Shown here piece after piece: positions 6,079-24,865 of a stretch of DNA of 64,000 bases. The stretch lies in the NCBI GenBank assembly GCA_029379225.1, contig JAQYWR010000003.1, positions 62,001 to 126,000 of the forward strand, read 5' to 3'. Position 1 is the stretch's first letter, and each line of letters opens with the position of its first letter. A program made the position numbers and the translations under genes. This DNA comes from Nostoc sp. S4. GTDB taxonomy: Bacteria; Cyanobacteriota; Cyanobacteriia; Cyanobacteriales; Nostocaceae. The notes beneath the pieces are model-generated. The model saw only the letters and a list, made by a program, of their open reading frames with translations. It searched no databases and was not told where the DNA came from.

Positions 6079-7485
6079 TTACGAGCAAGAATTGGCGATC
6101 GCGCTTGGCGTAGCTTTTGCGATCGCTCTGGTTAACTCCCGAAACAACATATTGGCAACCTTAGAGCCAAGCTTAGCCTGCAAGTGTTTGCCGTTGAGCA
6201 GCTGCTTTCCGGAAGCATCAACGTTGCTCTTAAGGATTTCTTTATAATCAGCGATTTCTTTACCAATGCGATTATCAGGCAATCGACCGTTAATTTCGAT
6301 TTTAGTGATTACATACTGCCAAAAGTTCATTCGGCACAACGCACTACCGCTACCTTTTTCAACTAGCTTATCGCCAGACTGCTCTAAGACAGTACCCATG
6401 CCTAACCTGAGCTTGAAGGCGTCGCGGCTGCGGTTGCGTTTAACGCGCTTGACGTCGCCGGGGAGAAACTTAACCACAGATTTACCATTTTCGCGGCTGA
6501 CCTGTTTTTTCTTGACTTCCCTAACTTCCCGCTCAATCAACTGTTTGCCGTTGGTCAAAAACGCTTCAAATGGATAGATTCGACTCAGCAGCCTAGCGCG
6601 AATTCTCAGTCCAAAATTGAACTGATCGAAAACCTGATTGTAGGTTTTGAATTGCTCGTGATTGACCAATGGCAAAAGCAATGCCTCTAGGCGTTGCTCC
6701 TCGATGTCGATATCGCATAACCAATCAGCATGAAGTCTGACAATTGGATCTATTTCTAGTCCAAGTTGTAGCGCGATTGATTGCTGGTATATTTTGGTGA
6801 TGGATTTGTAGTTCGCTGGGTGTACTTCTGACTGCCTTTGAGCTAACCAACCCCACAGAGGCGGCACATTTCCCACTTTAGTACTCTGGGTTTTACTGTG
6901 GGCTTTTTCTGGGAACTGCCACGCCAGGGCTTGGCGAATGTAGTTGACTATCGGCGATTGAACGCGGTTGAGATGTTCGAGTTGCTGGACAAGTTCGCGT
7001 ATCTCATCGATTGGCTGTGGGCGGTGCATGAGAAACGAGCGCGGGTTGAGTACGCCTGTTTCTAAATAATTCTCTCGATCCAAAGCGTAAGCAGCCATAG
7101 CCAAAGCATCGGCAGCATCAGATTTATTGGGTAAGTTTTTGCCACCGCGATAACGTTTGAGTTCAACGTGTCCAACCCAAAGTATGTTTATTCCTAAACT
7201 TTCTAAAATCCTTGCCCAAAGACGTGAATAATGATTTCCTGTTGGTTCCAGGATTGCAATATCGGGTTTATTTTCCCTTAGATAATCAGCAAAATCAAAA
7301 GCTGATTTTTGGTTGCTTTTTGGCTTGGGACTAGAGTAGAAACTAGGAAATAAATTTGACGCTTTAACTCTACTTTTCTGCCAATAGTTCTTTAAACCTC
7401 CTAATGGATATTGAGTTAAAATATGACAAGTTACGCTTGACTTACTAACATCAACTCCCAAGGATGTAATCGATTTAATTGTCAT
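6079..7485 (-). CDS. IS110-family-like DEDD transposase/recombinase
   Basis: A 468-residue protein. The N-terminal RuvC-like half shows the DEDD acidic set: Asp12 (SLGVDVSKSSV), Glu80 (ILEPTGNHYS), and Asp123 and Asp126 (NKSDAADALAM). The C-terminal half contains the second IS110-type domain, in which Ser370 (LEQSGDK) sits where the family's nucleophilic serine is found, ahead of a degenerate FWQYVITKIE helix. Both catalytic halves therefore appear intact. It is longer than most IS110 proteins (usually about 300-450). Members of this family recombine DNA guided by a bridge RNA encoded beside the gene. A structured 5' non-coding region lies directly upstream, and a terminator lies directly downstream. 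A Piv-like invertase role is the alternative. Confidence 0.82.
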   Translation of the reverse strand: MTIKSITSLGVDVSKSSVTCHILTQYPLGGLKNYWQKSRVKASNLFPSFYSSPKPKSNQKSAFDFADYLRENKPDIAILEPTGNHYSRLWARILESLGINILWVGHVELKRYRGGKNLPNKSDAADALAMAAYALDRENYLETGVLNPRSFLMHRPQPIDEIRELVQQLEHLNRVQSPIVNYIRQALAWQFPEKAHSKTQSTKVGNVPPLWGWLAQRQSEVHPANYKSITKIYQQSIALQLGLEIDPIVRLHADWLCDIDIEEQRLEALLLPLVNHEQFKTYNQVFDQFNFGLRIRARLLSRIYPFEAFLTNGKQLIEREVREVKKKQVSRENGKSVVKFLPGDVKRVKRNRSRDAFKLRLGMGTVLEQSGDKLVEKGSGSALCRMNFWQYVITKIEINGRLPDNRIGKEIADYKEILKSNVDASGKQLLNGKHLQAKLGSKVANMLFRELTRAIAKATPSAIANSCS

Positions 7486-10378: not shown

Positions 10379-10743
10379 ATGACAGAAGAAACTACGACAG
10401 ACAAAAAGACAATCAACGCAACAGTGAGGATGTTACCTCAAGATTGGGAAGCTCTGAGGGAGAAAGCATCTCAGCTAGGAATGAACCGGACAGAGTTTTT
10501 TACACAGATAGCGAGGGGAGAAATCAAGCTGGAACACGGTTTACTTCTGGAGGACAAGCAACTCTTGGGGGAATTTTCCGTAGGCTGAAGGAGTTACACG
10601 AAAAGTGTTTAGCTGTGATTGAGTCTCAGGAAAAGCAGATTGAAAGCAGCCTACATGAAAATAAGCAGTTAACAGCAGAAATACAAGATTTATACACACT
10701 CTTAGCTGAGACTTTACAAGAGGACTCATCAAATAGTGAATAA
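10379..10743 (+). CDS. Ribbon-helix-helix DNA-binding protein with coiled-coil tail, split by a -1 frameshift
   Basis: Frame A (10379-10588) gives a clear ribbon-helix-helix protein: INATVRMLPQDWEALREKAS, then MNRTEFFTQIARGEI. It stops at TGA right after LLGEFSVG. The overlapping frame one base back (open to 10743) is nonsense at first. From about 10570 it becomes a good coiled coil (RRLKELHEKCLAVIESQEKQ, then LHENKQLTAEIQDLYTLL). Joining the two at the GGGGG or TTTT runs (10566-10580) gives one plausible protein of about 120 residues, and a terminator follows immediately after the second frame. The change is either programmed slippage, a mutation or a sequencing error. A GAGGGG sequence fits the ATG at 10366 better, but that frame encodes no sensible N-terminus. 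Confidence 0.6.
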
Positions 10744-11420: not shown

Positions 11421-11582
11421 ATGAACACAACTCGCAATCACAGCAAGGTGATAGCTATCAAAATCTATTTTTGTTTCCGGGCTGGAATGACACCGCGTGA
11501 GACGTTCCGCCATTTAAAAATCAATTACAACACCTGTAGGAGGCATTTTCGTAAGTTTCAACAAATGACTTTAGTCAAATGA
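11421..11582 (+). CDS. Small basic protein, possible helix-turn-helix
   Basis: A 53-residue frame from the ATG at 11421 to the TGA at 11582, 6 bp after the previous gene. The product (NTTRNHSKVIAIKIYFCFRA, then MTPRETFRHLKINYNTCRRH) is very basic. It has a helix-TPRET-helix pattern like the helix-turn-helix of small transposon/resolvase regulators. It could be an excisionase or a DNA-binding remnant. The normal composition and tight spacing support it. Confidence 0.5.
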   Translation: MNTTRNHSKVIAIKIYFCFRAGMTPRETFRHLKINYNTCRRHFRKFQQMTLVK

Positions 11583-11689
11583 CATTGACATTTGACTAAA
11601 AAAACCAAAAAGCCATCAAGCATATTTAGCGATGTCTACGACGGGCTTCGCCTACGTGATGGCTTCCGGATATCTAACTGATAGTAATC

Positions 11690-12370
11690 ATGACACAAAA
11701 TACATATAAAAACAATCTTCCGTGGTCGGAAGAACACGAAGCATTCTGCTATTTGCATCATATTCCCCCGGCTGCTAAATCACTTTGGCAATGGCTAATG
11801 AGGCAAGGGGAAATAGCAGCAGAAATAGAACCAGACTTATCAGAATTTAACGCCACAGTAGCAAAATCACGAGGTAAAGGATATTCGCATAATTACCTCA
11901 AACAGATGTTTGAATTACTGCAATCACATCGTGTTGTGCAGGTAGTTAAGCAGTACAGTTGGAAGATTTTTAAGTTATTAGTTAGACCATTAGATTGGTT
12001 AAAATCACCGAAAAAACAAAACTTACAAAACAGTAACTATAGTTACAATTCACGACCTTCAAATGATAGCAATACCGTTGCCAGTACTATACAGCAGCAG
12101 CATTCTACTAACAAGCAACTGCTCTCAAGTAACGGTATTGATTATGACGATGATGTAACCGAAGTGCTGCAACGTCCAACTCATGAAATTAAGTTGGCAC
12201 TAATCATGTTTCATTTGCGTGGTGGTTTGGAAAAAATTATATATCCAGAAGCTTGGATACGTGATTGTTTGAGAAAACGTTATTGGTTACACCCACGAAA
12301 TTACAGTGTTTTACTTCAAATGTATGGGAACTCTACTGATTGGGAAGATTTATTTCCTAACAGTTGTTAA
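11690..12370 (+). CDS. Hypothetical protein with winged-helix-like N-terminus
   Basis: A 226-residue protein. Residues 10-95 resemble a winged helix-turn-helix of replication/plasmid proteins (HEAFCYLHHIPPAAKSLWQW, then KGYSHNYLKQMFELLQSHRV). A Ser/Asn/Gln-rich linker follows (about residues 105-145). The C-terminal helical segment (EIKLALIMFHLRGGLEKIIY, then AWIRDCLRKRYWL) is similar to the tails of replication-initiation helper proteins. I infer a DNA-binding replication or regulatory role for the island; no exact family is recognised. Confidence 0.6.
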   Translation: MTQNTYKNNLPWSEEHEAFCYLHHIPPAAKSLWQWLMRQGEIAAEIEPDLSEFNATVAKSRGKGYSHNYLKQMFELLQSHRVVQVVKQYSWKIFKLLVRPLDWLKSPKKQNLQNSNYSYNSRPSNDSNTVASTIQQQHSTNKQLLSSNGIDYDDDVTEVLQRPTHEIKLALIMFHLRGGLEKIIYPEAWIRDCLRKRYWLHPRNYSVLLQMYGNSTDWEDLFPNSC

Positions 12371-12400
12371 CTGTACGTATAAAAAAGCTGCAAATAAAAA

Positions 12401-12422
12401 CTGTCTCCATCGCTGGAGACAG
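12401..12422 (-). terminator. Perfect inverted repeat between island genes
   Basis: CTGTCTCC/GGAGACAG with a 6-base loop. The T-rich tail (TTTTTATTT) follows on the minus strand only, so it would work best as a leftward terminator; on the plus strand it may be an mRNA stem. Confidence 0.5.
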
Positions 12423-12444
12423 CGAACATTAAACCAGTCTGATT

Positions 12445-13086
12445 ATGAAACAAATCACATTATTTGACTTACAAGCTTTCACCAAGACTGAAGATAATCC
12501 CGTTTACGATCCGTCCTGGGATGAAGTTGAAACTGCGCCCCAACAGATCAATGACGAACCTTGGAACCTGGCCGATTTTGGTGAAGCACCCCGCAAAGTC
12601 GATGAGGACGGCCAAATTTCTATTTTTTGGGATGATAGCGACGAGCCACCAGATCCAGATGATTATCCTTGCATTGAGGCTTACCTTGAAGCTTGGAGCA
12701 AGTGGGAATTACGTGTTGGGGGGCAAAACTTAGACCCAGAATCACCGTACAAAAGTGTTGGGGGGCAAGTAGTCAGCAACACTCTAGATACTTGTACTGT
12801 CCACACTGGTGAGGTTATCTGTAATACCAAAAAATCTGCCCCCCAACACGATATTCATTGGGTAGAGAAATACTGGGTCGAGCGCTCTGGTAATAAATAT
12901 TGGTATTACCGCTACTGCTGGATGACTGGCCGCAAGATACATCGCTGCTATCTTGGCAGTGTGCATAGCAAGCTAGCCAAACATAAAAAGGCCGATGTCG
13001 AAGTTTGGATCAGCGACGGGCAATCACCTTCTGAGATTCAAAATTTAATTGCGTCTTGGCGTGACCCGAAGCGATCGCAGTCCTAA
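12445..13086 (+). CDS. Hypothetical protein with aromatic/basic C-terminal domain
   Basis: A 213-residue protein. The first 80 residues are acidic and proline-rich (PSWDEVETAPQQINDEPWNL, DDSDEPPDPDDYPCIEAYL). Residues about 138-175 form a striking aromatic/basic module (VEKYWVERSGNKYWYYRYCW, then MTGRKIHRCYLGS) like the short beta domains on cyanobacterial plasmid and phage proteins that may contact DNA. A C-terminal helix follows. It overlaps the convergent gene at 13010-13086. Function unknown. Confidence 0.6.
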   Translation: MKQITLFDLQAFTKTEDNPVYDPSWDEVETAPQQINDEPWNLADFGEAPRKVDEDGQISIFWDDSDEPPDPDDYPCIEAYLEAWSKWELRVGGQNLDPESPYKSVGGQVVSNTLDTCTVHTGEVICNTKKSAPQHDIHWVEKYWVERSGNKYWYYRYCWMTGRKIHRCYLGSVHSKLAKHKKADVEVWISDGQSPSEIQNLIASWRDPKRSQS

Positions 13087-13348
13087 ACTGTCGCAGTTCA
13101 TCCCAGCGCCGGGAAGTAGTTGAGCCAGTACGGCTGTACTGATTCGGGTGAAATTGGGCAATCCTGGTTTCTACAAAAGAGTCGATGAGCTGTAGAATCA
13201 TGTGTTGATCCATCACTAGACCAGAGTCGATGGCATAAGCGTATTCTAAAATCTGTTGTGCCAGTACGATTGGTACGCGGATAGTCTGAGTTTTGCCGTG
13301 GTTCCAAGCTGGCGGGAAGCTGGTGCTGTTTGTTCCTGGTTTGAGCAT
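13010..13348 (-). CDS. Hypothetical small regulator-like protein
   Basis: A 112-residue protein beginning MLKPGTNSTSFPPAWNHGKT, then QTIRVPIVLAQQILEYAYAI. The pattern 'K-T-x-x-I-R-V-P-x-x-L...I-L-x-x-A' is a beta strand followed by a helix, as in ribbon-helix-helix-type proteins widespread in cyanobacteria, so DNA binding is plausible. The C-terminal 30 residues overlap, in the opposite direction, the end of the rightward 213-residue gene and look less conserved. The true end may be earlier in evolution. It lies upstream of no other leftward gene. Confidence 0.6.
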   Translation of the reverse strand: MLKPGTNSTSFPPAWNHGKTQTIRVPIVLAQQILEYAYAIDSGLVMDQHMILQLIDSFVETRIAQFHPNQYSRTGSTTSRRWDELRQFRTAIASGHAKTQLNFESQKVIARR

Positions 13349-13523
13349 TGCACTCTTTGCTGAAAGGCCTGTGTCAAGGCAGGATACAGCGTTTTTGAAG
13401 AAACTGCAACGCTAAAAAATGGCGATCGCCCTGACCAAGAGATAAAGTGCGATCGCGTGTGACTGTCATGTAATTGATTTGGATTTGTATCGGTTTAAGC
13501 CTATCCCTTGTAGACAGGAATTG

Positions 13524-13676
13524 TCACAGATTTGGGTAAATCCGGTCTACCTCGTCCCATGCCTGATTAGTGAGATTCTCTAGTGCCATAGCCAAATATA
13601 AAGGGTGGTCGTACTCCCCTTGCTGCAAGCGTTCAAAGAATATTTCGATTTGCAGGAACAGGAAATAAGGATTCAT
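13524..13676 (-). CDS. 50-residue ORF coupled to the integrase
   Basis: The ATG at 13676 overlaps the integrase stop (ATGA at 13673-13676), and the frame ends at a TGA at 13524. The product (MNPYFLFLQIEIFFERLQQG, then PLYLAMALENLTNQAWDEVD) is a well-behaved helical acidic protein. Coupling to the integrase suggests a directionality factor or integrase partner, which is inference only. Confidence 0.65.
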   Translation of the reverse strand: MNPYFLFLQIEIFFERLQQGEYDHPLYLAMALENLTNQAWDEVDRIYPNL

Positions 13677-14254
13677 AGAGTGTTGATGGCTCCCTTAACG
13701 CGATCGCTATCAATTTCCACATAACCCTCTAGTGACTTGAAGTCCTTGTGGCCAGTAATCTGCTTAATGGTGTAAAGGTCAGTCCCGTTGCGGTGCAGCT
13801 TAGTTATAAAAGTCCGGCGGGTGCTGTGGGTACTGATACCCTTAACCACTAACCCAGCCCGGTCAACAGCTTTACGTAAAATCGCGTCAGCCCAACGGTT
13901 GCTAATTGGTTTAGAGCCGTCACGAGTAGGAAATAGCCATTGGGAGTCACAATCAGATTTGTAAGATAACAGCGACTCAGCCAGAATCGCGTGTACCGGG
14001 ACTTGGCGAGTTTTGCGCTGCCCGTCTGGTGTAGCTTTGCGAGTCCTGGCACGAAAATTGATGTATTCCCGTGGACTGCCATCAGGATTGTAAACATCAG
14101 CGAATTGCAACTTCACCAAAGCCCCCCACCTTTCCCCGGTGTACCAAGCCAGATCTAAAAGTAATTTATATTTTTGGCTTTTTATCTGCTTGCGGATTTT
14201 AGAATATTCCATGTCAGATAAAATAGCTGCTTGTCCGTTGCGATTATTTTTCAT
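13673..14254 (-). CDS. Tyrosine recombinase/integrase, catalytic domain only
   Basis: A 193-residue site-specific recombinase. All catalytic residues are visible: Arg42 (TGERWGAL), a Lys in GQRKTRQVP (about residue 81), His143 and Arg146 (STHSTRRTF), His169 (TGHKDF) and the nucleophile Tyr178 (EGYVEID). It lacks the usual N-terminal SAM-like core-binding and arm-binding domains (typical integrases are 300-400 residues), and the upstream DNA shows no missing coding sequence. Such minimal integrases occur on plasmids and in integron- or invertase-like systems. It likely mediates integration of the island, resolution of multimers or inversion. A 17-bp imperfect inverted repeat lies just upstream. 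Confidence 0.85.
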   Translation of the reverse strand: MKNNRNGQAAILSDMEYSKIRKQIKSQKYKLLLDLAWYTGERWGALVKLQFADVYNPDGSPREYINFRARTRKATPDGQRKTRQVPVHAILAESLLSYKSDCDSQWLFPTRDGSKPISNRWADAILRKAVDRAGLVVKGISTHSTRRTFITKLHRNGTDLYTIKQITGHKDFKSLEGYVEIDSDRVKGAINTL

Positions 14255-14271
14255 CTGTTTGAACTTTGAAG

Positions 14272-14312
14272 ATGTTCCGGATTAACCACTGCAACTGGTT
14301 AAACCGGAACAT
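14272..14312. repeat. Inverted repeat upstream of the integrase (candidate recombination or operator site)
   Basis: Arms of 17 bp with one mismatch: ATGTTCCGG + TT + AACCA on the left, TGGTT + AA + CCGGAACAT on the right, around a 7-base centre CTGCAAC. The size (two about 13-17-bp arms and a 7-bp spacer) matches the core sites used by tyrosine recombinases. It lies 18 bp upstream of the integrase start. An operator or a leftward mRNA hairpin are alternatives. Confidence 0.55.
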
Positions 14313-14472
14313 TTTCCATTTTGGCTATTAGTAAAAAGTGGTTCAATCCTAATCTGGGCAAGCTTTCAAAGTCCTCAGCAATTGTTCTGCTTTTACATAA
14401 AAGAAGAAGATTTACAGAAATTTAGCCAACGCATACAACAGATTTATGACGCTGAAATTTGCGGATAAATAA

Positions 14473-15219
14473 ATGGCAGGCGAAATCGTATTAGCTGGCA
14501 AAGAAAAGATAGTTTTAGCAGTAAATAGGAATAATTACAGGTCAGTAGTTTCCGAAGTCCTAGCAAATAGAAATTTAATCGAAAACAGAGACATTGGGGA
14601 CTTTGTAGGTTTACCAGTTGAAGACTATGTTCGCGCCAAAGTAGAAACAATAAAATTAAGCGTATTTTTCTTTAATTATCAACAACCACCATTCAGAGAA
14701 AGACAAGGTTTTAGGTTTGTTCGGGTAACCTATAATATCCCCGATGTCAACAAAGCCAAGCTAGATTGGCTGACGATTAAAAATGCTTGTGGAGGAGCAG
14801 AGGGTTACACCTGGGGAAGATTCCGAGCCACTGCAAACCTAAGCAATGGTAGACAGATGCAAGTCTACGGTGGCAGTGATGAGACAGCTGCAAATATGTT
14901 GCGCTCATTGGCAGCGTTCTCAACTGCCAAGATACTCACCATGACAGTAGCGGAGGAAAAGAAAGAGGGAAGACGGGCAGAAAATAAAAGAATGTACAAA
15001 GAGACGACACGAGTATATCCGGCGTTTTTTAGTGTTTTAAATTTTGAAAAAGTAGTAGTAGAGGAACAAAGAGAATACTCAGGATTTAATGCTACTCTTG
15101 CCGGAGATTTTCGGCGTAGCCGCACAAAAAAAGTTCCACTTTGGGTAAATAAAGAGCCTTCAAATGCTAGAGCAATAATTACTGAAGCTTTACGAGTTAA
15201 AGGAGTAACACAAGACTAA
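14473..15219 (+). CDS. Unrecognised protein A of the structural-looking block
   Basis: A 248-residue soluble basic protein, first of the rightward 7.5 kb block. No known family. The middle (RQGFRFVRVTYNIPDVNKAK, then WGRFRATANLSNGRQMQVYG) is beta-rich. The C-terminus is basic (DFRRSRTKKVPLW). The helical ETAANMLRSLAAFS segment precedes a charged stretch (EEKKEGRRAENKR). Its stop overlaps the start of gene B (TAATG), so the two are coupled. A structural or nucleic-acid-binding role in a particle is possible but unproven. Confidence 0.65.
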   Translation: MAGEIVLAGKEKIVLAVNRNNYRSVVSEVLANRNLIENRDIGDFVGLPVEDYVRAKVETIKLSVFFFNYQQPPFRERQGFRFVRVTYNIPDVNKAKLDWLTIKNACGGAEGYTWGRFRATANLSNGRQMQVYGGSDETAANMLRSLAAFSTAKILTMTVAEEKKEGRRAENKRMYKETTRVYPAFFSVLNFEKVVVEEQREYSGFNATLAGDFRRSRTKKVPLWVNKEPSNARAIITEALRVKGVTQD

Positions 15220-16007
15220 TGACATTAGAAAAATTAACTATTAAGCAAAAAATAGTTGTAACGCTTGACCACAATAGTGGAACTAACGTTGTTCCAATTT
15301 TCAATTATGTTCCCTATACCAAATCAGGTTACAGACTGATTGATGAGTACTTAGAAATAAATAATTTGAAAGCAGTTAGCTGGATATATTCCTTGACTCC
15401 AGTTGAATTCCCGGTTTTCGAGTTGGAGGATAGCGAGTCTAAACAATTGCTCACAGCAATTAACTTGGAGTGGAACTCTCCGAGAATTCAACTTGATGTA
15501 GTTTGTCAAATAGGCAGCAATCAAGAGTGGCAAAGAATAGCAGCCTACTCACTATTAAATCCCGACCCCTATCCTTACAGAGAATATTCTCTAGGTGACC
15601 ATAGTTTAGGTAACAATGCAATGATTGGACTACAAATACAAGATGCCAATTATGGTTTACTGCAAAGTAGCACCGCCGGAGAAGATAAGGTAATAGCTTA
15701 TGCTGATTTAACACGTCAAATAACTATCGAAAAATTAGTAGATACATCCGTCAAAATAGCGAATAACATTACTAATATTGCAGCAACAATCATCAACAGC
15801 AATGCCAATAGAAAAGGTTTAACGCTGTTTAATAGCAGTGAGAAAAACGTATTTATAGACAGCGTTTCGAGTGTCAGTCCTAGTAGTCATCTAGTAGAGC
15901 TTGAACCGGGGGACTATTGGGAATCTCCTGCACCAATTTACTTAGGTGCTTACTATGGCATTGTGGATTCTGGCAGCACTGCAATAGACATTAGGGAGTT
16001 TGTCTAA
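15219..16007 (+). CDS. Unrecognised protein B, virion-protein-like C-terminus
   Basis: A 262-residue protein coupled to gene A (the ATG shares the A of the TAA stop). It is mostly beta-rich. The C-terminal 70 residues (KGLTLFNSSEKNVFIDSVSS, then LVELEPGDYWESPAPIYLGA) look like a compact beta-sandwich. It has the 'L-F-N-S-S-x-x-x-V-F/Y-I' and 'L-x-P-G-x-Y-W-E' pattern seen in small phage capsid-decoration or tail-associated domains. That resemblance is my reading, not a database match. Confidence 0.6.
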   Translation: MTLEKLTIKQKIVVTLDHNSGTNVVPIFNYVPYTKSGYRLIDEYLEINNLKAVSWIYSLTPVEFPVFELEDSESKQLLTAINLEWNSPRIQLDVVCQIGSNQEWQRIAAYSLLNPDPYPYREYSLGDHSLGNNAMIGLQIQDANYGLLQSSTAGEDKVIAYADLTRQITIEKLVDTSVKIANNITNIAATIINSNANRKGLTLFNSSEKNVFIDSVSSVSPSSHLVELEPGDYWESPAPIYLGAYYGIVDSGSTAIDIREFV

Positions 16008-16008
16008 G

Positions 16009-17655
16009 ATGTTTGCAGATAGTCCTGGAGGCTTACTCGCAGAAAAAGCCAAATCTTTTTTTATAGATACTGTGCAAAACAGTCCTGCTAGTAGATTTTT
16101 TCGCGAGCAAGCACCACCTATTTATGAGTACTTACAAGAGATAGCAATTGCCAAACTTATATACGATGAATGCACAGTTGGCGTAGAAATTAATGGAATG
16201 TTGCTTGTTTGGCGAAATCCAGCATGTCAGCCACGCCAACCACCACCACTCCCCCTCCCATCCTCACAGCCAATACAAGAGGCTTTTAGTCCAGTTTCAT
16301 GCAGTTCAGGACTACCAGCATTGAGCATTTCTCACTTACGGCGTTTTCAAAACTCTGAATATAACAACTCCATAATTAGACAAATAGATTGCGAAATACT
16401 TAAAGTTGAGTATCCCAAAGAATACCATTATATTTCTAACAATCACCAAGTTGTTTTTCAAGGTGCAAAAGTTACTGTAGGCGTCACAATTCAAACTACA
16501 GGAGATGTAACCCAAAATATCAAAGAAACCTACACATATGATATTTACCCAGGGTCAAATACAGACAGCTTTAGAGACCCATATAATTATGCTTCTTACA
16601 ATGAAGGCACTGAAGAATACACACTTTTTGGATATGTCGGCGTACTAGGTAGCGTAGTCGGTTTTGCTAAATATAACGCCAAACCAGTATCAAACTTCCT
16701 TTGGAAATACCGTGAACAGTATTATCAAACTCCCTATGTAGACAATAATGACCATCTGACTGGTCAGATAGGAATTTATCGTCAAGTGTGGGTTATTGAA
16801 AGTTTTTGTGGCAACTACAAAAAACCTCCATTACCACCACCTCCACCACGACCACCCAAAAAAAAGGACTGTTGTATGTGTTGTCCAGGGCAGGAAAATA
16901 ACGATGCCTTACTCAAGCTAATACTAAAACGCATTGGGTCTTTACCCGCAGATGTCCCAGCTAGCTACTTAACTAAAAACGGAGTGCAACCAGCACAACT
17001 TAAAAAAGTTGAAAGCCTAACACAGTTTATTGCTTGGTTTGCTGAAAGATTTGATGAAACTGTAGGCGAATTTGAAATTACTATCGATGTGGATGATGCC
17101 GATTTAACTAAAGAAGGTAAGCAAACACAAACTATTCGCCTGCCTAATCTTGCAGAATCAATCGCTGAAATGTTTTCATTGATGATTCATTTTAATATTA
17201 ATAATGAATTGATTCTTAATATCGTTAATCGAACCTTAATCGAGTCAGGACAAATCAAACAAAGTGAATTCAAGACTTACAGTGCTTTAAATGCACTCAT
17301 AGATTATGTAGGATTTCATACCACTTCCGAAGTTCAAAAAATGCCACTAAGCTTCACGGTTGGGGAACAATCCTTTGACAAGTTATTGAAAGAATCAGAG
17401 CAAAGCGTCTCAGTACTAACCTACAACGAAAAAGAAACTCTGATTGCCAAAATGCAATCTCTTTTGCAAGCTGCTGCAATTACTAGAGCCGTGCATTACA
17501 AACGCACAGGCGGTAATCAACAACAGATTGCTAGCAAAATAAAAAATGATTTACTGACCTTGCTGGGTGAGAGTGGCACTATCACCGACCAAGTAAAAGC
17601 TTTCATTACAGATATTGACCAGGTATACAATGGCGTCGATAATAAATCTAAGTAG
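16009..17655 (+). CDS. Unrecognised large protein C with polyproline/Cys linker
   Basis: A 548-residue protein. The ATG at 16009 is chosen over a TTG at 16000 because it directly follows the TAA of gene B. It is built of an N-terminal 280-residue part with a Pro-rich loop (PACQPRQPPPLPLPSSQP), then KKPPLPPPPPRPPKKK immediately followed by CCMCCPG (near residue 290), then a helical acidic C-terminal part (SLTQFIAWFAERFDETVGEF..., LAESIAEMFSLMIHFNINNE). The Pro/Cys linker looks like a hinge with possible metal or disulfide cross-linking. It resembles a receptor-binding or spike protein in layout only. Confidence 0.6.
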   Translation: MFADSPGGLLAEKAKSFFIDTVQNSPASRFFREQAPPIYEYLQEIAIAKLIYDECTVGVEINGMLLVWRNPACQPRQPPPLPLPSSQPIQEAFSPVSCSSGLPALSISHLRRFQNSEYNNSIIRQIDCEILKVEYPKEYHYISNNHQVVFQGAKVTVGVTIQTTGDVTQNIKETYTYDIYPGSNTDSFRDPYNYASYNEGTEEYTLFGYVGVLGSVVGFAKYNAKPVSNFLWKYREQYYQTPYVDNNDHLTGQIGIYRQVWVIESFCGNYKKPPLPPPPPRPPKKKDCCMCCPGQENNDALLKLILKRIGSLPADVPASYLTKNGVQPAQLKKVESLTQFIAWFAERFDETVGEFEITIDVDDADLTKEGKQTQTIRLPNLAESIAEMFSLMIHFNINNELILNIVNRTLIESGQIKQSEFKTYSALNALIDYVGFHTTSEVQKMPLSFTVGEQSFDKLLKESEQSVSVLTYNEKETLIAKMQSLLQAAAITRAVHYKRTGGNQQQIASKIKNDLLTLLGESGTITDQVKAFITDIDQVYNGVDNKSK

Positions 17656-18508
17656 TAGAGTCATTCGTGCTACTGCTGTTCCCAATGGTAAAAGAGTTGT
17701 TTTAAATTCCGCATCCGCACAAGGTGGATTTTTTGGGTTTTTAGGGTCTAATGCCCAATCCTTACTAAAAGGTTTATTTTCTTTAATCTCCCAAGGATTA
17801 ACGTGGACATTTACCTCTATTTGGACAGCAATAGTAGTTGCTAACAGTTTCATATTCAATTTTAATTTCAATATCGGTGATGCTGAAATTCAGGCACAAA
17901 TTGACAATAGCTTTGTCACCATCGCTGGCTTACTAGGGCAGGCAGCAGGGAAGACACTTGGATATCTTGCCTGTGGGGCTTTACCTGCTTTGGGAGTTTT
18001 CGTCATTAGTCCTACGGTTTTTGAAGCGATCGCCCCAAAAATAACAGAGGAACTTCTAGAACAACTAGCGAGCGAATATTCAACAATTATCTATCAAAGC
18101 TCTCGGCTGCTTCTAAATGCTGGATTTCTGTGGCTATACGGTAGTATTCGCCGTACTTTCCGGGGAAGTGATAACGATTTAAAAAATCGTTTGAAAGCAG
18201 CAGGTGCAAACGAAGAAAAAATTAAACAAGAACTAGAAACTAGAAGTAAACCGTTTGTTCTTTCTCAAAAAATACAAGAACGTGTTGACTCAATCCAAGG
18301 TAAAAAGACCAGAGCATTTGTTGACCAAGCTTACCAAGAATTTGGTGTGGCTTGTACAGAAGCGGGTTATGTAGTAGCAGGTGCGTTGGATTCTTATATT
18401 TATCAAAAAAATCTTGTTAATAATCAAAATCTAATTGAAATCCAATTTGATAATAATAACAATCCGGTGGTTAGAGAAGTTACTACAGTAAATATTCAAC
18501 CACATTAA
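17630..18508 (+). CDS. Unrecognised membrane protein D
   Basis: About 292 residues. The start is taken at the ATG at 17630 (MASIINLSSRVIRATAVPNG), which overlaps the end of gene C by 26 bases; an upstream TTG (17615) is less likely. Hydrophobic segments lie at about residues 45-75 (LISQGLTWTFTSIWTAIVVA) and 105-135 (GYLACGALPALGVFVISPTV), with a third near SRLLLNAGFLWLYG. A charged helical stretch (LKNRLKAAGANEEKIKQELE) follows. It could be a membrane component of a virus-like particle or of its assembly or lysis machinery. Confidence 0.6.
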   Translation: MASIINLSSRVIRATAVPNGKRVVLNSASAQGGFFGFLGSNAQSLLKGLFSLISQGLTWTFTSIWTAIVVANSFIFNFNFNIGDAEIQAQIDNSFVTIAGLLGQAAGKTLGYLACGALPALGVFVISPTVFEAIAPKITEELLEQLASEYSTIIYQSSRLLLNAGFLWLYGSIRRTFRGSDNDLKNRLKAAGANEEKIKQELETRSKPFVLSQKIQERVDSIQGKKTRAFVDQAYQEFGVACTEAGYVVAGALDSYIYQKNLVNNQNLIEIQFDNNNNPVVREVTTVNIQPH

Positions 18509-18983
18509 TAATCGGTTTACCACTGGAATTGATGGAGACTGTAAAGGGTATAGTTGCGCTACCACTGAATACAGCATTATCACCATCGTAGCTAAAGTTA
18601 GTATAATTATTTCCGGCTGAATTACTAGTATTATCAGCTTCTTTACTTTGCAAATAAGACGCTATTTCTATTAATGATTGGGCGGCGGTAGAACTTTTAA
18701 AAGTTCCGTTGCTGCCACTACTAAAACCCAAATTTGTGAGATATTCGCTAGCAGTTAATTCGATGCTACCTGTAGCCGTAATTGTTGGGACAGAAGGAAT
18801 ACTAAAAGAAATTGCTACCGAACCCGTGTTGACGTTGAAATCAAGAGTTACGTAATTACGCTTATTTGGATTAATTGTTGTATCTGCTTCGCCATTTTTG
18901 AGAAAAGTTACAAGCTCAATCAGTGCATTTTCGGCGCTGGTTGATTTTAAAGTGCCGTTGGTTCCAGGTATTACGGAGGTCAT
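18483..18983 (-). CDS. Duplicated-domain beta protein E, on the opposite strand
   Basis: A 166-residue Ser/Thr/Asn-rich protein made of two about 80-residue copies. GTNGTLKSTSAENALIELV aligns with GSNGTFKSSTAAQSLIEIA, NKRNYVTLDFNVNTGSVAIS aligns with NNYTNFSYDGDNAVFSGSAT, and both copies end near ...EYL. There is no signal peptide. It is the only leftward gene inside the rightward block and its 3' end overlaps the end of gene D by 26 bp. It looks like a small surface or decoration protein, possibly an inserted cassette. Confidence 0.65.
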   Translation of the reverse strand: MTSVIPGTNGTLKSTSAENALIELVTFLKNGEADTTINPNKRNYVTLDFNVNTGSVAISFSIPSVPTITATGSIELTASEYLTNLGFSSGSNGTFKSSTAAQSLIEIASYLQSKEADNTSNSAGNNYTNFSYDGDNAVFSGSATIPFTVSINSSGKPIINVVEYLL

Positions 18984-19121
18984 AGTTACCTTTGAAAAAT
19001 CGTCTAATAAAAATGCAAACCCTTTGGGTTTATGTTATAACGCGAGGCTGAAAAACATTATATATTCAATTTTCTTTTGGGCAGTATTAATTTAGACCCC
19101 TAAACTTTAAAGGTTAAAGAT
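18984..19121. promoter_or_regulatory. Divergent intergenic region between E and F
   Basis: This 138-bp spacer must hold promoters for the leftward gene E and the rightward gene F. It contains a tight palindrome AAACCCTTTGGGTTT (19017-19031) and a TATGTTATAACG stretch resembling a -10 region. No definite promoter can be set. Confidence 0.4.
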
Positions 19122-19709
19122 ATGGCTCGACGGTTTAATAATTTAAAATCAGCTTTGAGATATTTACGCCCTCCGGGAGCAAATGAAAACTCTGTAGTTC
19201 CAGACGCGCCAGAAGGAACGCAATTAAGGAAATTTCAGGACTTTAAAGCGGGCAAAGTAGTTGTTAAGATTACTCGCAATGCAGATAGCCTCCCTGGTAA
19301 CGAAACCTTTTGCTCTCTCAAAGCTTTTGCTGATTTGAGTACCTCTACTACCAGATACTTGGTTAATATTTCAGGCAGGGCATTGTCTGGTATTGCAAAC
19401 ACAGGTTTAAATGCTTCAGATGATTTAAATATTGATACGACTCCAGCAAATAATGTCGGGTTGGAGAAAGTTAAAGGTTTTGTACCAGCCAAAGCTACTG
19501 TTTCAGTTATCCCAACAGGTGCTGGCTCACCAACTCAATCAAAAATAACTGGAAATAGCTACAAAAAGAAAACAACAAAAACATATACTTATCCTTTTGG
19601 TATTGGTACAACACACAACACCTACAAAAGCGTTAAAGCTGCAATTATTGCTAAGGTTGCGGCTGGAGACGCTAATCGTAGTGTATCTTTCAAAGCTGAG
19701 AAATTTTAA
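19122..19709 (+). CDS. Unrecognised protein F, candidate major structural protein
   Basis: A 195-residue basic protein. The N-terminus (MARRFNNLKSALRYLRPPGA) is basic and proline-kinked. The body is beta-rich and Ser/Thr/Gly-rich (KVVVKITRNADSLPGNETFC, TRYLVNISGRALSGIANTGL). The C-terminus includes KKKTTKTYTYPFGIGTTHNT. Its size, strand content, separate promoter region and position suggest an abundant structural subunit; this is inference. No homologue family is recognised. Confidence 0.55.
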   Translation: MARRFNNLKSALRYLRPPGANENSVVPDAPEGTQLRKFQDFKAGKVVVKITRNADSLPGNETFCSLKAFADLSTSTTRYLVNISGRALSGIANTGLNASDDLNIDTTPANNVGLEKVKGFVPAKATVSVIPTGAGSPTQSKITGNSYKKKTTKTYTYPFGIGTTHNTYKSVKAAIIAKVAAGDANRSVSFKAEKF

Positions 19710-19711
19710 TT

Positions 19712-19945
19712 ATGCTTGAAGGCATTCTGGAGTTAAGTATTGTTACAACTGAGGGAATGTCTGAGAGTGAATCATTGAAACTAATCGAGCAATTAGAATG
19801 TGCTGAACTGGCTCAACAACGTTTTATTCAAGGCTCGATTAGTTTTGAAGATTATCTAGATATTCTTGAGTTGTGCGAAGTTGATATTGATGATTACTTA
19901 GAAATAGTTGATGAGAATCTTGAAACGGCAGTAATCGTTGTTTAA
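19712..19945 (+). CDS. Small acidic protein G
   Basis: A 77-residue acidic protein two bases downstream of gene F. It has two helices (SLKLIEQLECAELAQQRFIQ, then ISFEDYLDILELCEVDIDDY) and a hydrophobic C-terminus (ETAVIVV). The acidic character opposite a basic neighbour suggests a partner or scaffold for F, which is speculation. Unknown family. Confidence 0.6.
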   Translation: MLEGILELSIVTTEGMSESESLKLIEQLECAELAQQRFIQGSISFEDYLDILELCEVDIDDYLEIVDENLETAVIVV

Positions 19946-19986
19946 GACTTATTCAAAGCTGCAACTCAGTTGAAAAATAGTTAGTT

Positions 19987-20469
19987 ATGAGTAACCCAGT
20001 TTTACAACTTGGCAACTCAAGTAACTGGGAAAGCGTTTACACAAGTTCAGTGAATGCAGTAGTTAGTGCTGATGGTCAAAGTTATAGACCAATTCCCACA
20101 ATTACAATTCCAATACTGCTGGATAAGCACATCATCGCAGTTTCAGTTACTTGTAGTACTGCTAAGCCAACTTGGTATTTTGGTGGTTTTATCAATCAAA
20201 AAATTGCTTTAGGGATACTGGTTGGAGGATTGCCAGATTCTGAGGCTGTACAAAAGCGCAAAATCTGGCTCAACCGAATTACTTTAATTATCTTTCCGAA
20301 GCTGACTGAGACTTATTCACTTTCGCTTGATGTTCCTAAGTGGTTTCAAGATGTCAGTTTTAGTGTCTTTAAATATATTGGGACTGAATCTGATACTACG
20401 GAAGATTTGATTAATCAAGTTATTAATGTAGATTTACCACGAATTGAAAGTAAAATTGATGCTCTTTAA
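19987..20469 (+). CDS. Unrecognised beta-rich protein H
   Basis: A 160-residue protein (PTITIPILLDKHIIAVSVTC, then KIWLNRITLIIFPKLTETYS) with alternating strands typical of a beta-sandwich and a short C-terminal helix (EDLINQVINVDLPRIESKID). No signal peptide. It lies in the same rightward run as F and G. A minor structural protein of the putative particle is possible. Confidence 0.55.
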   Translation: MSNPVLQLGNSSNWESVYTSSVNAVVSADGQSYRPIPTITIPILLDKHIIAVSVTCSTAKPTWYFGGFINQKIALGILVGGLPDSEAVQKRKIWLNRITLIIFPKLTETYSLSLDVPKWFQDVSFSVFKYIGTESDTTEDLINQVINVDLPRIESKIDAL

Positions 20470-20539
20470 ATTCTCAATTTGGGTATCAATTAGCTGTTTA
20501 TTAATGCTCAATAACTTTTGCCAATGTCCACTACATACA

Positions 20540-20899
20540 ATGGTTGACTTAAAAAACTCAATTGATTTATTATTAGGAATTTTCGCGCTGGTTGCTATCG
20601 TCTATCGGATCAGCCACATGGAGGCAGCAATTTATCGAGAAATTGATAAGGTTTCAGATGAACTTAGAAAAGAAGTGCATCTAATTCAAATGGATTTCTT
20701 TACACATAAAACTGATTATACAGTTCGTAAGGAATGGCAATCTGATGTGGCACGCGGATTGAAACAGATGATTAAGCACAAATTCAGTAGGTTGAATTTT
20801 CATATTATTGATATCCAACGCCACTTAGAAAAACAAACTGGGTTTATTGTTCGCTCTCAACCTGTCGCTGACCCAGATGAAGACGAAAATGAAAATTAA
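20540..20899 (+). CDS. Membrane-anchored coiled-coil protein I
   Basis: About 119 residues from the ATG at 20540; the frame is open to 20444, overlapping gene H, and that longer form adds a hydrophobic Cys-rich leader. It has one membrane segment (SIDLLLGIFALVAIVYRISH) followed by an amphipathic coiled coil (EAAIYREIDKVSDELRKEVH, then LIQMDFFTHK) and an acidic tail. The layout resembles phage spanin or holin-associated proteins and lies directly before the holin-like gene J. Confidence 0.6.
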   Translation: MVDLKNSIDLLLGIFALVAIVYRISHMEAAIYREIDKVSDELRKEVHLIQMDFFTHKTDYTVRKEWQSDVARGLKQMIKHKFSRLNFHIIDIQRHLEKQTGFIVRSQPVADPDEDENEN

Positions 20900-20951
20900 C
20901 TTTTAAGTTTGGGAATACTATCAACACATCAATGAAGGAGAAATAATCTAA

Positions 20952-21140
20952 ATGTCTAAATCAACTCTCAACACTGTTAGCACAATCGTAGGTCTAATTG
21001 CAGCTGGTTCCAGCTTACTTGGCAGCACTGGGGTGATTAATCACGGTGTCGCTAGCACCATCAGCGGTTTTGCTACTGCCATACTGGGTTATTTGGTACA
21101 CCAACCTGCTGCTGACGAGCAGCCACAACCTCAAAAGTAA
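20952..21140 (+). CDS. Small holin-like membrane protein J
   Basis: A 62-residue protein with two predicted membrane helices (TVSTIVGLIAAGSSLLGSTG, then VASTISGFATAILGYLVHQP) and a short charged Pro/Gln tail, the usual holin topology. A good AAGGAGA Shine-Dalgarno sequence lies at 20935. Its position beside a membrane coiled-coil protein and before the LamG protein supports a lysis or membrane role. Confidence 0.65.
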   Translation: MSKSTLNTVSTIVGLIAAGSSLLGSTGVINHGVASTISGFATAILGYLVHQPAADEQPQPQK

Positions 21141-21150
21141 TTAGGTAAGT

Positions 21151-21972
21151 ATGCCATTAGTAAAAGCGTCAAAAGGACAAGATAGCCCTAGCGGAATATC
21201 ACTGCCTACCGAGATTAGAACAAGTGCAAATGATGCCGATTATGTATTTATGATTGACGCATCAGGCGCACCCTACAAAATTACTAAGGCTAATTTCTTA
21301 GCTGGTTTATCAAGTGGAACAACTAGCGGTGGAACTAGCGGTGGTACAAATTTAAATTCTTCGTTAATCTTCGGTTCGCATTTTGAAAGTTTGATAGATG
21401 TCAAAGGTCATACAATAGCTGGTGGTGCTGTAATTAGTGGTGACCAGAAATATTTTGGCTCATCGTCTTTATACTGTGATGGTTCCGCTGCATCTTACGC
21501 CACTGTTTCAGATCCTAATAGTGACTTTAGTATTGCTGATAGCGAGAATTTCACTTTTGCGAGTTTTCTTCATTTTATAGCTTTACCAAGTGCTTACGGT
21601 TTTGCACCTTTTCTACAAATAGGCAGCAATCTTGGAACTAATGGTTTTAGAGTTGGTTGGGATAATGAAACAGGAGGATTGATTCAACTGTTTTTAGGTG
21701 GCACGGATTTTTATTTCCCTTGGGCACCAAGTATTAATACTTGGTATTATTTCAGTTTAGAAAGAAATAATGGTTCTGTAATTTGTAAAATTGATGGCAG
21801 TCAGATTGGAAATTCAATTAATAAAGCATCTGCAATTGTTGGTGGTAGCAACATATTAATTGGCGGTGCTAGTGCTGCCACATCACAAAGAATGAGAGGT
21901 TACTTTGATGAACTGATTTTTTCTAGAAGTTATCTAGCAATTACTAGTAAACCAACACAAGCATTTTCTTAA
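21151..21972 (+). CDS. LamG/concanavalin-fold protein K with tail-fibre-like N-terminus
   Basis: A 273-residue protein. Residues 1-55 contain the motif ADYVFMIDASGAPYKITKAN, the short N-terminal attachment module typical of phage tail-fibre and baseplate proteins. A Gly/Ser/Thr linker follows (SSGTTSGGTSGGT). Residues about 70-265 form a LamG-type beta-sandwich (KYFGSSSLYCDGSAASYATV, NTWYYFSLERNNGSVICKID, then GYFDELIFSRS), normally a carbohydrate-binding or surface-binding fold. It starts 11 bp after gene J and closes the block. It is the strongest hint that the block is virus-derived: a receptor-binding protein. Confidence 0.78.
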   Translation: MPLVKASKGQDSPSGISLPTEIRTSANDADYVFMIDASGAPYKITKANFLAGLSSGTTSGGTSGGTNLNSSLIFGSHFESLIDVKGHTIAGGAVISGDQKYFGSSSLYCDGSAASYATVSDPNSDFSIADSENFTFASFLHFIALPSAYGFAPFLQIGSNLGTNGFRVGWDNETGGLIQLFLGGTDFYFPWAPSINTWYYFSLERNNGSVICKIDGSQIGNSINKASAIVGGSNILIGGASAATSQRMRGYFDELIFSRSYLAITSKPTQAFS

Positions 21973-22121
21973 TTAAATGCCTATTGAGTATTACATCCGC
22001 TTCACACACGTGTTAAAAGGCTCTGGCGTCGATGACTCCTGTGGGGATTCTCTTTAACTAGTTGCGCTCTCAATTCCCCAAGCACTTGTCTAAATTTTTT
22101 CTATGTATATTTACTTAGAAT

Positions 22122-23003
22122 TTATTGATTCATTTCCAGCAGTTGAGGAACTGTTACAAATCGGTAGCCTTGCTGTTTAAGTCCACTAATGATTTGTGGT
22201 AATGCTTGTACAGTTCTTTCCCGATTACCCCCCCCATCGTGCATTAAAACAATAGAACCGGGTTTGGCACCTTTCAACACATTATTTACAAATGCTTGAG
22301 GTTTAGCATGAGGGTCAGTATCAGCCGAAGTTAACGACCACATCACTATAGTATCTTTCTGGTTTTTAGCATAGGCGGCTAGTCCATTGTTTAAAAAGCC
22401 TCCTGGAGGACGAAACAAAGAAGTTTTGACACCTGTAGTTTTATAAATCAGGTCAGCTGTGCGTTCAATTTCACTTTTGGCTGTGGCTTCATCCATCCGC
22501 CGATACCAATGATGCCAAGTATGATTACCAATAACATATCCCTCAGCTACTTCTCGCTTTGCAAGGTCAGGATGTTCTTGTAAGGCTTGTCCTACCAAAA
22601 AAAATGTTGCCTTAACTTGATTTTTATCGAGAATATCTAATATTTGTGAGGTTGTATTTTGCCAAGGGCCATCATCAATAGTCAGAGCAATAACTTTATC
22701 ATTGTTATGAAGTTGGGCGTGATAAACAATTTTTCCCTGATATTGAGTTGGTACGGTAAAGATAAGGTTTTGTACTTTGGGTGGTGACGACAACTGAGTG
22801 TTAACTAATTTGTGAAGCTGTTTTGTTGGAATCTGTAGAGTTGGCGATAAATTTACGGGCTGATTTATCTTTGAGAAGAAAGTATTTGGTGCAGTGCTAC
22901 AAGCTGTGGTCAAATTAGCAACAGAACTGATAATTGTGACAATACCAATTATCTTTTGAGGCTTAGGGCAATTTTTTATCATGTAATTTTTCCAAAAACT
23001 CAC
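22122..23003 (-). CDS. Polysaccharide deacetylase (NodB domain), probable lipoprotein
   Basis: A 293-residue carbohydrate esterase family 4 protein that removes N- or O-acetyl groups from glycans such as peptidoglycan or exopolysaccharide. Visible motifs are TIDDGPW (catalytic/metal Asp), HTWHH (metal His pair) and RPPGG, with a final VLMHDGG. The N-terminus has a hydrophobic segment ending ANLTTAC, a possible lipobox. The start at 23003 gives basic residues before the hydrophobic core. It stands alone at the right border of the island. Confidence 0.9.
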   Translation of the reverse strand: MSFWKNYMIKNCPKPQKIIGIVTIISSVANLTTACSTAPNTFFSKINQPVNLSPTLQIPTKQLHKLVNTQLSSPPKVQNLIFTVPTQYQGKIVYHAQLHNNDKVIALTIDDGPWQNTTSQILDILDKNQVKATFFLVGQALQEHPDLAKREVAEGYVIGNHTWHHWYRRMDEATAKSEIERTADLIYKTTGVKTSLFRPPGGFLNNGLAAYAKNQKDTIVMWSLTSADTDPHAKPQAFVNNVLKGAKPGSIVLMHDGGGNRERTVQALPQIISGLKQQGYRFVTVPQLLEMNQ

Positions 23004-23414
23004 CCAATGATAGACTATAGTTTTGCTTTTGGGAGGAGAACAAATTTGAAAGCACTGAGTACTGAGTCACCAAAGTTTAAATGCTTGTAGTCAAGCTGTG
23101 GTTTTAACTTATGGCTGAACGCTAAGTAAGAGACTTTGAAAAAATTAATTATCGAAAAACTTTTTGCTCAATTTCTGCTTCACAACTTAGATAATCAATT
23201 TAGCTTCGTAAGCTACTTGCGCGATCGTGGTTATTCTAAAGTCTGTAAATTAGGACTTACGCAAGTGTTATATTTTTTTGGCAGAGGTTGAAACAACTCA
23301 AAAGTCCAAAATCTAATTTTTGACCTTTGACTTTTGACTTAAGAGCAGGGGCTGATCCTTGAGTGTTAACCTTCATAATGAAAGATAGATGTGCCAGTTG
23401 CCTAAGCCCTGTCC
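23004..23414. other. Intergenic region with a lone element end
   Basis: 411 bases without a gene. It contains one AGGACTTACGCAAGTG element end (23252-23270) and otherwise AT-rich sequence. The upstream part probably holds the promoter of the leftward deacetylase. Confidence 0.5.
23252..23270. repeat. Solo end of the AGGACTTACGCA repeat family
   Basis: AGGACTTACGCAAGTGTTA matches the terminal sequence of the palindromic element at 32704-32874. No partner inverted copy is seen nearby. Confidence 0.6.
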
Positions 23415-24614
23415 ATGAAACGTTATCAACACAAACGATCGCAGCGGCGTCAGCTAACATCCCGTTGGATTGGAATAGCGATCGCCTTCTATGCTTTCAT
23501 CGCCATTGGCATTGCCGAAGCTGGGCTGGGGGTGCTGTTACCGTCCATCCTGTCTACTTACCAACTGACTCCAGCAACTGTGACCCTGCTGTTTGTCAGT
23601 CAAATTAGTGGATACATTGTTGCTGCCTTCAGCAGTAGTTTGGTCAGTAGCCGTTTAGGGCTGGCGCGAATGCTCCTGATTGCTGCCAGTGCCCTGACAA
23701 GTGCGCTGCTCATTTATGCCCTGTCCCCCTACTGGTCGATCGTGGTCATTGCAGGAACCTTACTGGGGCTGGGGATTGGTTTAATTGATGCAGGCATCAA
23801 CACCTACATTGTGCAGGACTCGCGGAGTGCAAATCTAATCGGTTCGCTTCATGCCTTCTATGGCATTGGCGCATTCCTGGGGCCGACGGTGGCAACGACG
23901 CTGTTAGCTGTTGGTATAAATTGGCGGCAAGTGTATCTGGTCTTAGCCAGTGTGGTCAGTGTATTAGTAATAGGTCTTATCAGCGTCATTCTCTGTCGCT
24001 ATCAGCCGATGATGGCAAGGGTAACGACATCTGAGACGACTGCGGTTGCAAATTTGCAGCGAGCGCTTCATTATCCTACTGTGCTGTTAACCGGGCTGCT
24101 CTTGCTGGTGTATGTGGGCACTGAAGCCTCGGTTGGTAACTGGGCATACACAGTACAATCTGTTGCCCGACAAACACCTAAATTGATTGCAGGATACAGT
24201 GTAAGTGCATATTGGATGGGGCTGACGATTGGACGCTTCAGTCTGAGTTACTGCTTGAAACGGCTGGGTGCCGTTCGCACCATCAGCTTATCTTTGAGTC
24301 TATTGACCATCGGTTTGGTTGCCTGGTGGCTCTTACCCAATCCGTGGATCGGCTTACCATTGATTGGCTTTGCCTTAGCCGCCATCTTCCCCGCTACTAT
24401 TTGGCTGATTCCCCAACGAGTGCCAGAACCGCTCGTGCCTGCGGCAGTGGGTTTTGCTACCAGTAGCGCCAGTTTTGGAGCAGCGATCGTGCCGACGGGA
24501 GTAGGCTGGTTGGCGAACTGGGCAGGTTTGGATATCATCCCCATGTTGATGCTGCCACCCGCAATTGTGATGATCGGTATACATTGCTGGTTAGTTCAAC
24601 ATCAGCAATCTTAA
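23415..24614 (+). CDS. Major facilitator superfamily transporter
   Basis: A 399-residue integral membrane protein with about 12 hydrophobic helices, e.g. IAIAFYAFIAIGIAEAGLGV, VVIAGTLLGLGIGLIDAGIN and PLIGFALAAIFPATIWLIP. The loop 2-3 region (SSRLGLARMLLIA) resembles the MFS signature. The glycine-rich helix 4-5 (GIGAFLGPTVATTLL) resembles the FucP/YbjJ-like subgroup. The substrate cannot be told. The Met at 23415 is followed by a basic stretch (KRYQHKRSQRRQ), as expected for a cytoplasmic N-terminus. Its base composition is GC-richer than its neighbours, hinting at transfer. Confidence 0.87.
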   Translation: MKRYQHKRSQRRQLTSRWIGIAIAFYAFIAIGIAEAGLGVLLPSILSTYQLTPATVTLLFVSQISGYIVAAFSSSLVSSRLGLARMLLIAASALTSALLIYALSPYWSIVVIAGTLLGLGIGLIDAGINTYIVQDSRSANLIGSLHAFYGIGAFLGPTVATTLLAVGINWRQVYLVLASVVSVLVIGLISVILCRYQPMMARVTTSETTAVANLQRALHYPTVLLTGLLLLVYVGTEASVGNWAYTVQSVARQTPKLIAGYSVSAYWMGLTIGRFSLSYCLKRLGAVRTISLSLSLLTIGLVAWWLLPNPWIGLPLIGFALAAIFPATIWLIPQRVPEPLVPAAVGFATSSASFGAAIVPTGVGWLANWAGLDIIPMLMLPPAIVMIGIHCWLVQHQQS

Positions 24615-24865
24615 GGAATATTGAATGATGTCACAAAGAGTTGTTAAGCGCATCTAACTGAATACTATTTCAATTTATTAAATATCTGCAAAAATATTCA
24701 TCCAAATGCTTTGAAATTTTTTGTAGATATTTTTTGATAATTTTTTATCTATTTACTAATCAAAAAATATAGCTTGATGACAGATGTTTTATCTATCACT
24801 AGAATGATGGCTACTTTGCAAATCGCAGACATAATGTGACGTGAGTAAGTATAAGACATCAAAAA

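Follow-up and report, generated by a model that had tools for sequence, protein, structure and literature searches.

The window analysed here, a stretch of 64,000 nucleotides, lies on contig C84 of the 7.66 Mb genome of Nostoc sp. S4 (G000). At positions 14473–21972 it holds a block of genes that an earlier note, made from the sequence alone, had read as a novel tailless or membrane-associated virus, satellite or domesticated particle. The gene map given there, with ten rightward genes and one leftward gene, was reproduced exactly by the list of open reading frames (ORFs), several neighbouring members of which share a few overlapping bases (Table 1). The block makes up the structural half only of a larger element, which also takes in 10379–14254 and probably starts near 7854.

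The block genes were scanned against Pfam, leaving out the LamG gene, and against PHROGs, leaving out the gene at 19712, so that each scan covered ten of the eleven genes. Within this scope the genes other than the LamG gene gave no significant match to either collection, and no capsid, portal, terminase or tail-tube gene was recognised, in line with what the earlier note had listed as missing. The motif quoted there, ADYVFMIDASGAPYKITKAN, is present in the product of 21151–21972. Residues 82–260 of this LamG protein match three PHROG families (best E value 1.9e-10), two of which are named virion structural protein, and share ~30% identity with structural proteins from phages of Synechococcus, 48 records having matched. 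The closest named match, Nostoc sp. PA-18-2419 (locus L075; 96% in gene A), carries a LamG homologue that is 40% identical and occupies a different place in the module. In comparison with this strain, the ratio of nonsynonymous to synonymous substitution rates (dN/dS) amounted to 0.05–0.20 for ten block genes; the LamG gene, in which dS is saturated, gave 0.34. As gene C falls into two frames in L075, its two parts were compared separately. As judged from these ratios, the block genes are maintained and under purifying selection.

Table 1 Features of the element and its left side in the window.
Feature	Coordinates	Strand	Description
Insertion-sequence transposase	6079..7485	-	Left side of element
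Family 13	10379..10588	+	Small regulator-like protein; relative scores to RHH_1 just under cutoff
Family n124	11690..12370	+	Same place in Trichormus (L076) and Nostoc LEGE 06077 (L094)
Family n76	12445..13086	+	Partner of n124
Family 16	13010..13348	-	Small protein
Family n125	13524..13676	-	Small gene adjoining recombinase
Short tyrosine recombinase	13673..14254	-	193 aa; Pfam Phage_integrase, E 1.3e-17
Palindromic site	14273..14311	.	15-bp arms, one mismatch, 9-bp spacer; in conserved intergenic stretch
Gene A	14473..15219	+	248 aa; core family; C-terminal part of fused D-A protein in 38/56 loci
Gene B	15219..16007	+	262 aa; predicted single jelly-roll (1-174) and second beta-sandwich (175-262)
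Gene C	16000..17655	+	551 aa; C-terminal part conserved, proline-rich middle variable
Gene D	17615..18508	+	297 aa; membrane-type, long helices; N-terminal part of fused D-A in relatives
Family 10	18483..18983	-	Two-repeat protein, repeat seen by eye
f29 protein	19122..19709	+	195 aa; unrelated f3 (~225 aa) in same place in other relatives
Family 21	19712..19945	+	Small acidic protein behind f29
19987 protein	19987..20469	+	160 aa; occurs in sister element type too
Family 11	20444..20899	+	Hydrophobic segments at N-terminus, coiled-coil-like tail
Family 22	20952..21140	+	62-aa hydrophobic protein; weak holin score (phrog_3428, E 0.23)
LamG-type receptor-binding protein	21151..21972	+	Matches to PHROGs and phage structural proteins

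Relatives of the block were compared in 56 loci, all picked through hits to A or to the D–A profile. Since the loci were chosen in this way, the presence counts are biased, and since some loci are doubled under two sources (e.g., L025 = L075, L026 = L080, L033/L034 = L089/L090), they are not independent. Gene C was present in 54, D in 55 and B in 42 of these loci; A and D are separate genes in 18 of them, including the window, and fused into one protein in the remainder. Either f3 or f29 was found in 50 loci (36 and 14, respectively), never both together. Grouping the two as one family was rejected, as hhalign detected no relation between them; f3 has an internal duplication seen by eye. A small acidic protein (family 5 or 21) accompanies the module in 49 and family 4 in 36 loci, and one relative of gene C (L030) has collagen-like repeats. 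A single 785-aa frame unites f3, D and A in Nostocales cyanobacterium HT-58-2 (L084), where C, B and families 5 and 4 are missing; this is probably a decayed copy. The f29 protein is a candidate for the major structural protein, and the family 11 protein may have a lysis-type role.

Pairwise distances of the structural genes correlate with each other (e.g., A–C 0.72, A–f3 0.83, f3–family 4 0.86), the lowest values being those of f29–B (0.17, 28 pairs) and A–f29 (0.22, 21 pairs). Structural genes gave −0.14 to 0.27 against the recombinase and −0.08 to 0.09 against the primase-helicase, a family that mixes types; all of these coefficients are indicative, as they were computed without a relatedness test. 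Since the structural genes co-vary among themselves, but not with recombinase or primase-helicase, the data suggest that the structural cassette moves as a unit and that integration and replication genes are swapped, as in temperate viruses.

With gene A alone as query, relatives were found in 18 of 148 related genomes, and with the D–A profile in 27 of 386 genomes across the phylum, belonging to ten families (own genome included in both counts). Two of the 27 show a partial match only, at E values near 1e-11. A pattern scan of the genome_contigs collection yielded 25 loci in 19 named genomes, all of them cyanobacteria by title.

Two complete circular plasmids are found among the relatives, namely unnamed14 of Tolypothrix sp. 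PCC 7601 (20,757 bp), a strain maintained in laboratories, and pMIC7113.08 of Allocoleopsis franciscana PCC 7113 (20,803 bp). These plasmids (NZ_CP064893.1 and NC_019743.1) carry A, B, C and D together with f3 or f29 and are, at the level of genes, circular replicons with virion-type genes, as expected of a phage-plasmid. Both circular plasmids are typed as non-mobilizable, and neither has annotated head or tail genes. The title of one module contig (L093) reads cov_235.7 and possibly reflects a multi-copy state; read coverage was dropped as a sign of this, as the single title offers no baseline for comparison.

Other relatives are integrated. A metagenome assembly of Goleter apudmare holds two copies in tandem, the period being exactly 18,006 bp and the identity complete over 18,067 bp, and the 61-bp overhang occurs three times. 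The first 44 bases of this 61-bp repeat match exactly the 3′ portion of a tRNA-Phe gene called by ARAGORN in Calothrix L098; in the Goleter stretch the 5′ half of that tRNA-Phe is absent and ARAGORN calls no tRNA. Calothrix sp. HK-06 contains two copies at a distance of 20,327 bp; they share an identical run of 17,682 bp, the start of which falls within tRNA-Phe. ARAGORN, applied to 28 loci, called a tRNA in five of them (Phe in L098, L030 and L042, Thr in L088 and Cys in L092). Relatives carry a tyrosine recombinase together with direct repeats at a tRNA gene, the mark of an integrative element. The window has the recombinase, but such a repeat site was not found in it: no tRNA was called, and the longest direct repeat between the two tested edges measured 14 bases. 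The Goleter element also encodes a MerR-like regulator with a long DDAT peptide repeat (L033, 14417–15034).

For replication, many relatives encode D5/VapE-type primase-helicases, others a DnaB-type protein or the n124/n76 pair, the latter being common to the window, L076 and L094; by its position, n124 may act in replication. Some relatives have P-loop ATPases (family 28 in 9 of 56 loci). Examined with a view to the A32-type packaging ATPase of tailless Varidnaviria phages, these score weakly to HerA/FtsK and AAA. Two of the ATPases score weakly to the terminase P-loop profile phrog_2666 (E values of 0.0042 and 0.0019). Some appear to have an N-terminal membrane segment; in the Pfam scan these did not score to Zot, the ATPase typical of filamentous phages (Inoviridae). 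The same kind of scan, which covered a part of the genes of the relatives, named no relaxase. The packaging ATPase that the earlier note had reported as missing is indeed not recognised in the window copy, nor is a large primase-helicase, and a search of the window genome with one relative's ATPase as query, run without positive control, found none, but some relatives have the P-loop ATPases described above.

A DNA search of 53 genomes of the genus detected the stretch between the recombinase and gene A, complete or partial, in 25 (own included). Its conserved intergenic part (14300–14447) adjoins the recombinase and also occurs in elements without genes A–D. Such sister elements (L151–L155, L157, L158, L160, L163, L167 and L168), taken from stretches fetched around some of the 25 genomes, share the recombinase and varying subsets of n124/n76 or primase-helicase, f29, family 21, the 19987 family and families 11, 22 and 23. 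In place of A–D they encode proteins of 101–119 aa, 137–175 aa (Cys-rich), 767–904 aa and 273–321 aa, the family members having been picked by position. In five loci that were scanned, the 767–904-aa protein has collagen-like and coiled-coil character; its L151 copy is split by an inserted gene. The idea that the ~280-aa sister protein is a form of A was rejected, since hhalign gave no relation above 30% probability. The sister elements apparently represent a second, interchangeable structural type.

Of 17 sequences examined for the palindromic site next to the recombinase, 14 have 12 or 13 of the 13 arm positions paired (one of them, L155, at a different place), compared with a maximum of 10–12 in shuffled controls (60 mononucleotide shuffles per sequence). 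Allowing up to three mismatches, the site occurs at one place in the window genome. It was therefore dropped as an integration (attachment, att) site; more likely candidates are an operator or a site at which the short recombinase acts in resolution. Short hits of the DNA search were also considered as spacers of clustered regularly interspaced short palindromic repeats (CRISPR) and dropped, as they were not recognisable as such.

Structure prediction followed by fold search, which the earlier note had suggested, was run on B and returned a single jelly-roll with a second beta-sandwich behind it. The model would fit a spike- or penton-like base; since B lacks a profile hit in some loci and the part behind the jelly-roll is variable, a spike fits better than a capsid. 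One row (L092:4654-5679) was taken out of the B alignment as it did not look homologous. No member of Singelaviria was present among the 50 fold matches listed for B, in which one single jelly-roll is predicted, and no double jelly-roll protein was identified, f29, C, the second half of f3, family 4 and the 19987 protein having no usable model. In a model of f3–D–A, the A domain is predicted with a local distance difference test score (pLDDT) of 88–98 over model residues 601–730, with weak stretches on both sides. The single BFVD match to this model at an E value of at most 0.001, A0A510E869 (1.8e-5), carries no name. Among PDB sequences the profile of B found no match, and the best E values reached with those of A and f3 were 0.07 and 0.25, respectively.

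The counterpart of the left flank, which extends to 5614 (to 5647 in one genome), is separated in five related genomes by 1.4–2.3 kb from sequence matching the window from 24650 onward; this shortened distance places the foreign stretch inside about 5615–24649. The transposase on the left side, which we take to be of the IS110 type, marks an insertion sequence that may have caused a loss of the element's left arm. Given this insertion and the lack of a recognised ATPase or large primase-helicase, the window copy may be defective or use a different module. To the right, 22122–23003 is presumably a polysaccharide deacetylase gene; in 14 genomes of the genus, close homologues of it are found either on a different contig or at a distance of over 0.5 Mb from the homologue of the left flank, which indicates that the site is rearranged beyond the element itself. 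A search of 5000–24700 against Rfam gave no match. A stretch of 38–49 bp at 18996–19044, between family 10 and f29, recurs on contig C96 of the window genome and is present twice in contig C57 of G042. Outside the element, the window contains a small ORF built of repeats of the type LNSEVAPFYSNVEP (55030–55494) and a large protein (47242–50550) with a stretch that, we presume, resembles a DUF4157 domain. This domain often accompanies extracellular contractile injection systems.

Searches of IMG/VR with A, B, fused D–A and the 19987 protein, and of INPHARED with A, the 19987 protein and f29, found no relative. Searches of the literature on cyanobacterial tailless viruses, phage-plasmids and prophages brought up no description of the family in the titles and abstract openings listed. 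As a kind, a provirus or phage-plasmid is already known; this gene set was not found described in the databases and literature searched. To our knowledge, non-tailed viruses of cyanobacteria are hardly known.

Judging from sequence comparison, we consider it on balance probable that the block represents the late, structural half of an 18–21 kb temperate, probably tailless virus-like element of cyanobacteria. As assembled, the element is a plasmid in two strains, chromosomal in others and arranged in tandem at a tRNA-Phe gene in two assemblies. Switching on of the late operon would yield a tailless, membrane-associated particle, with f29 (or f3) and its small acidic partner as the main building block, D–A as membrane-anchored component, C as fibre or stalk and B as a jelly-roll base carrying exchangeable receptor-binding modules. 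The LamG protein would be an extra receptor binder, the membrane proteins of families 11 and 22 would serve exit, and packaging would be driven by the P-loop ATPase in copies that have one. More tentatively, and with clearly less confidence, these parts could define a virus lineage with its own virion architecture, comprising the D–A membrane anchor, an f29/f3 shell or coat with acidic partner, collagen-like fibres and a jelly-roll spike, without known capsid relatives and with at least two interchangeable structural types. If particles are made, a major photosynthetic phylum would gain a tailless temperate virus group and perhaps a virion built in a new way; the family is widespread among the genomes sampled, yet no member was found in the viral collections searched. 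From the earlier reading we retain the virus-like character, the receptor-binding-type LamG protein, the membrane proteins, the lack of a recognised tail or packaging gene and the probable absence of a tail. A satellite or a domesticated particle is not favoured, as the relatives have their own integration and replication genes, occur in plasmid and tandem forms and span ten families.

Several observations weigh against a viral nature. The jelly-roll matches of B are not specific to viruses, one of them being a bacterial appendage protein, and in 14 of 56 loci B is without a profile hit. No known virion fold was identified in the f3–D–A model, although absence from the VIA list excludes nothing, and the A domain is barely covered by the fold matches listed, which gives no ground for calling its fold new. 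The particle itself, the identity of its major capsid protein and its packaging mechanism are what we infer. The strongest rival is an integrative plasmid family of non-viral nature that carries a module for surface fibres or adhesion, in which A–D and f29/f3 would form an appendage, LamG would bind neighbours or surfaces, and spread would occur by transformation or with helpers. Such a family would account for the missing capsid signatures and missing viral database hits. We nevertheless regard it as rather unlikely, since fibre parts obtain scores against tail-fibre and virion families of phages, small hydrophobic holin-like proteins stand at the module end, the module varies independently of the replication genes, as is the case in temperate viruses, and neither a named relaxase in the Pfam-scanned genes nor the plasmid typing points to mobilization. 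Homologues in a known non-viral system, which the earlier note had named as contrary evidence, did not come up in these searches, although B has the appendage match.

A satellite packaged in the capsid of a tailed helper phage, with receptor-binding parts of its own, would agree with the lack of a recognised capsid or terminase, the size of 18–21 kb and the element's own recombinase and replication genes. It appears improbable, as no gene redirecting portal, capsid or terminase was recognised, the element is present in ten families, and the module is large, with membrane-type and jelly-roll proteins rather than fibres alone. Least of all do we expect a decayed tailed prophage that has retained fibre and lysis genes: the LamG protein and fibre-like repeats do match tailed-phage proteins, but 54 of 56 loci share the same core set, two complete plasmids have no annotated head or tail genes, and purifying selection acts on the block. 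Profile tests detected none of the marks of tailed phages (terminase, portal, HK97-fold capsid and tail genes) in the block; a strongly diverged HK97 fold may escape such tests.

Compared with known systems, the virus-like element resembles satellites of the phage-inducible chromosomal island (PICI) type in its size and its own integrase and replication genes, but differs in its conserved structural-type module and in having no recognised gene for interference or packaging redirection. With phages of the corticovirus/tectivirus type (Varidnaviria) it shares a small temperate genome, integrated or plasmid-borne, and membrane and spike-type proteins. In contrast to these, the cyanobacterial element measures 18–21 kb, has an ATPase in part of the loci only and has no identified double jelly-roll, and no sequence relation was found. 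Tailless prophages of marine Vibrio with an internal membrane measure 12.1–15.1 kb, and one group is plasmid-borne (PMC11630473). The single jelly-roll of B with its second beta domain, the genome size and the P-loop ATPase of some relatives are similar to those of membrane viruses of the P23-77 and halophilic sphaerolipovirus type, which differs in having two jelly-roll capsid proteins as against one predicted jelly-roll protein here. The element is unlike phage-plasmids of the P1 or N15 type in measuring ~20 kb only and having no recognised tail module. It is like them in combining a circular replicon with virion-type genes, and the recombinase beside a palindromic site recalls cre/lox.
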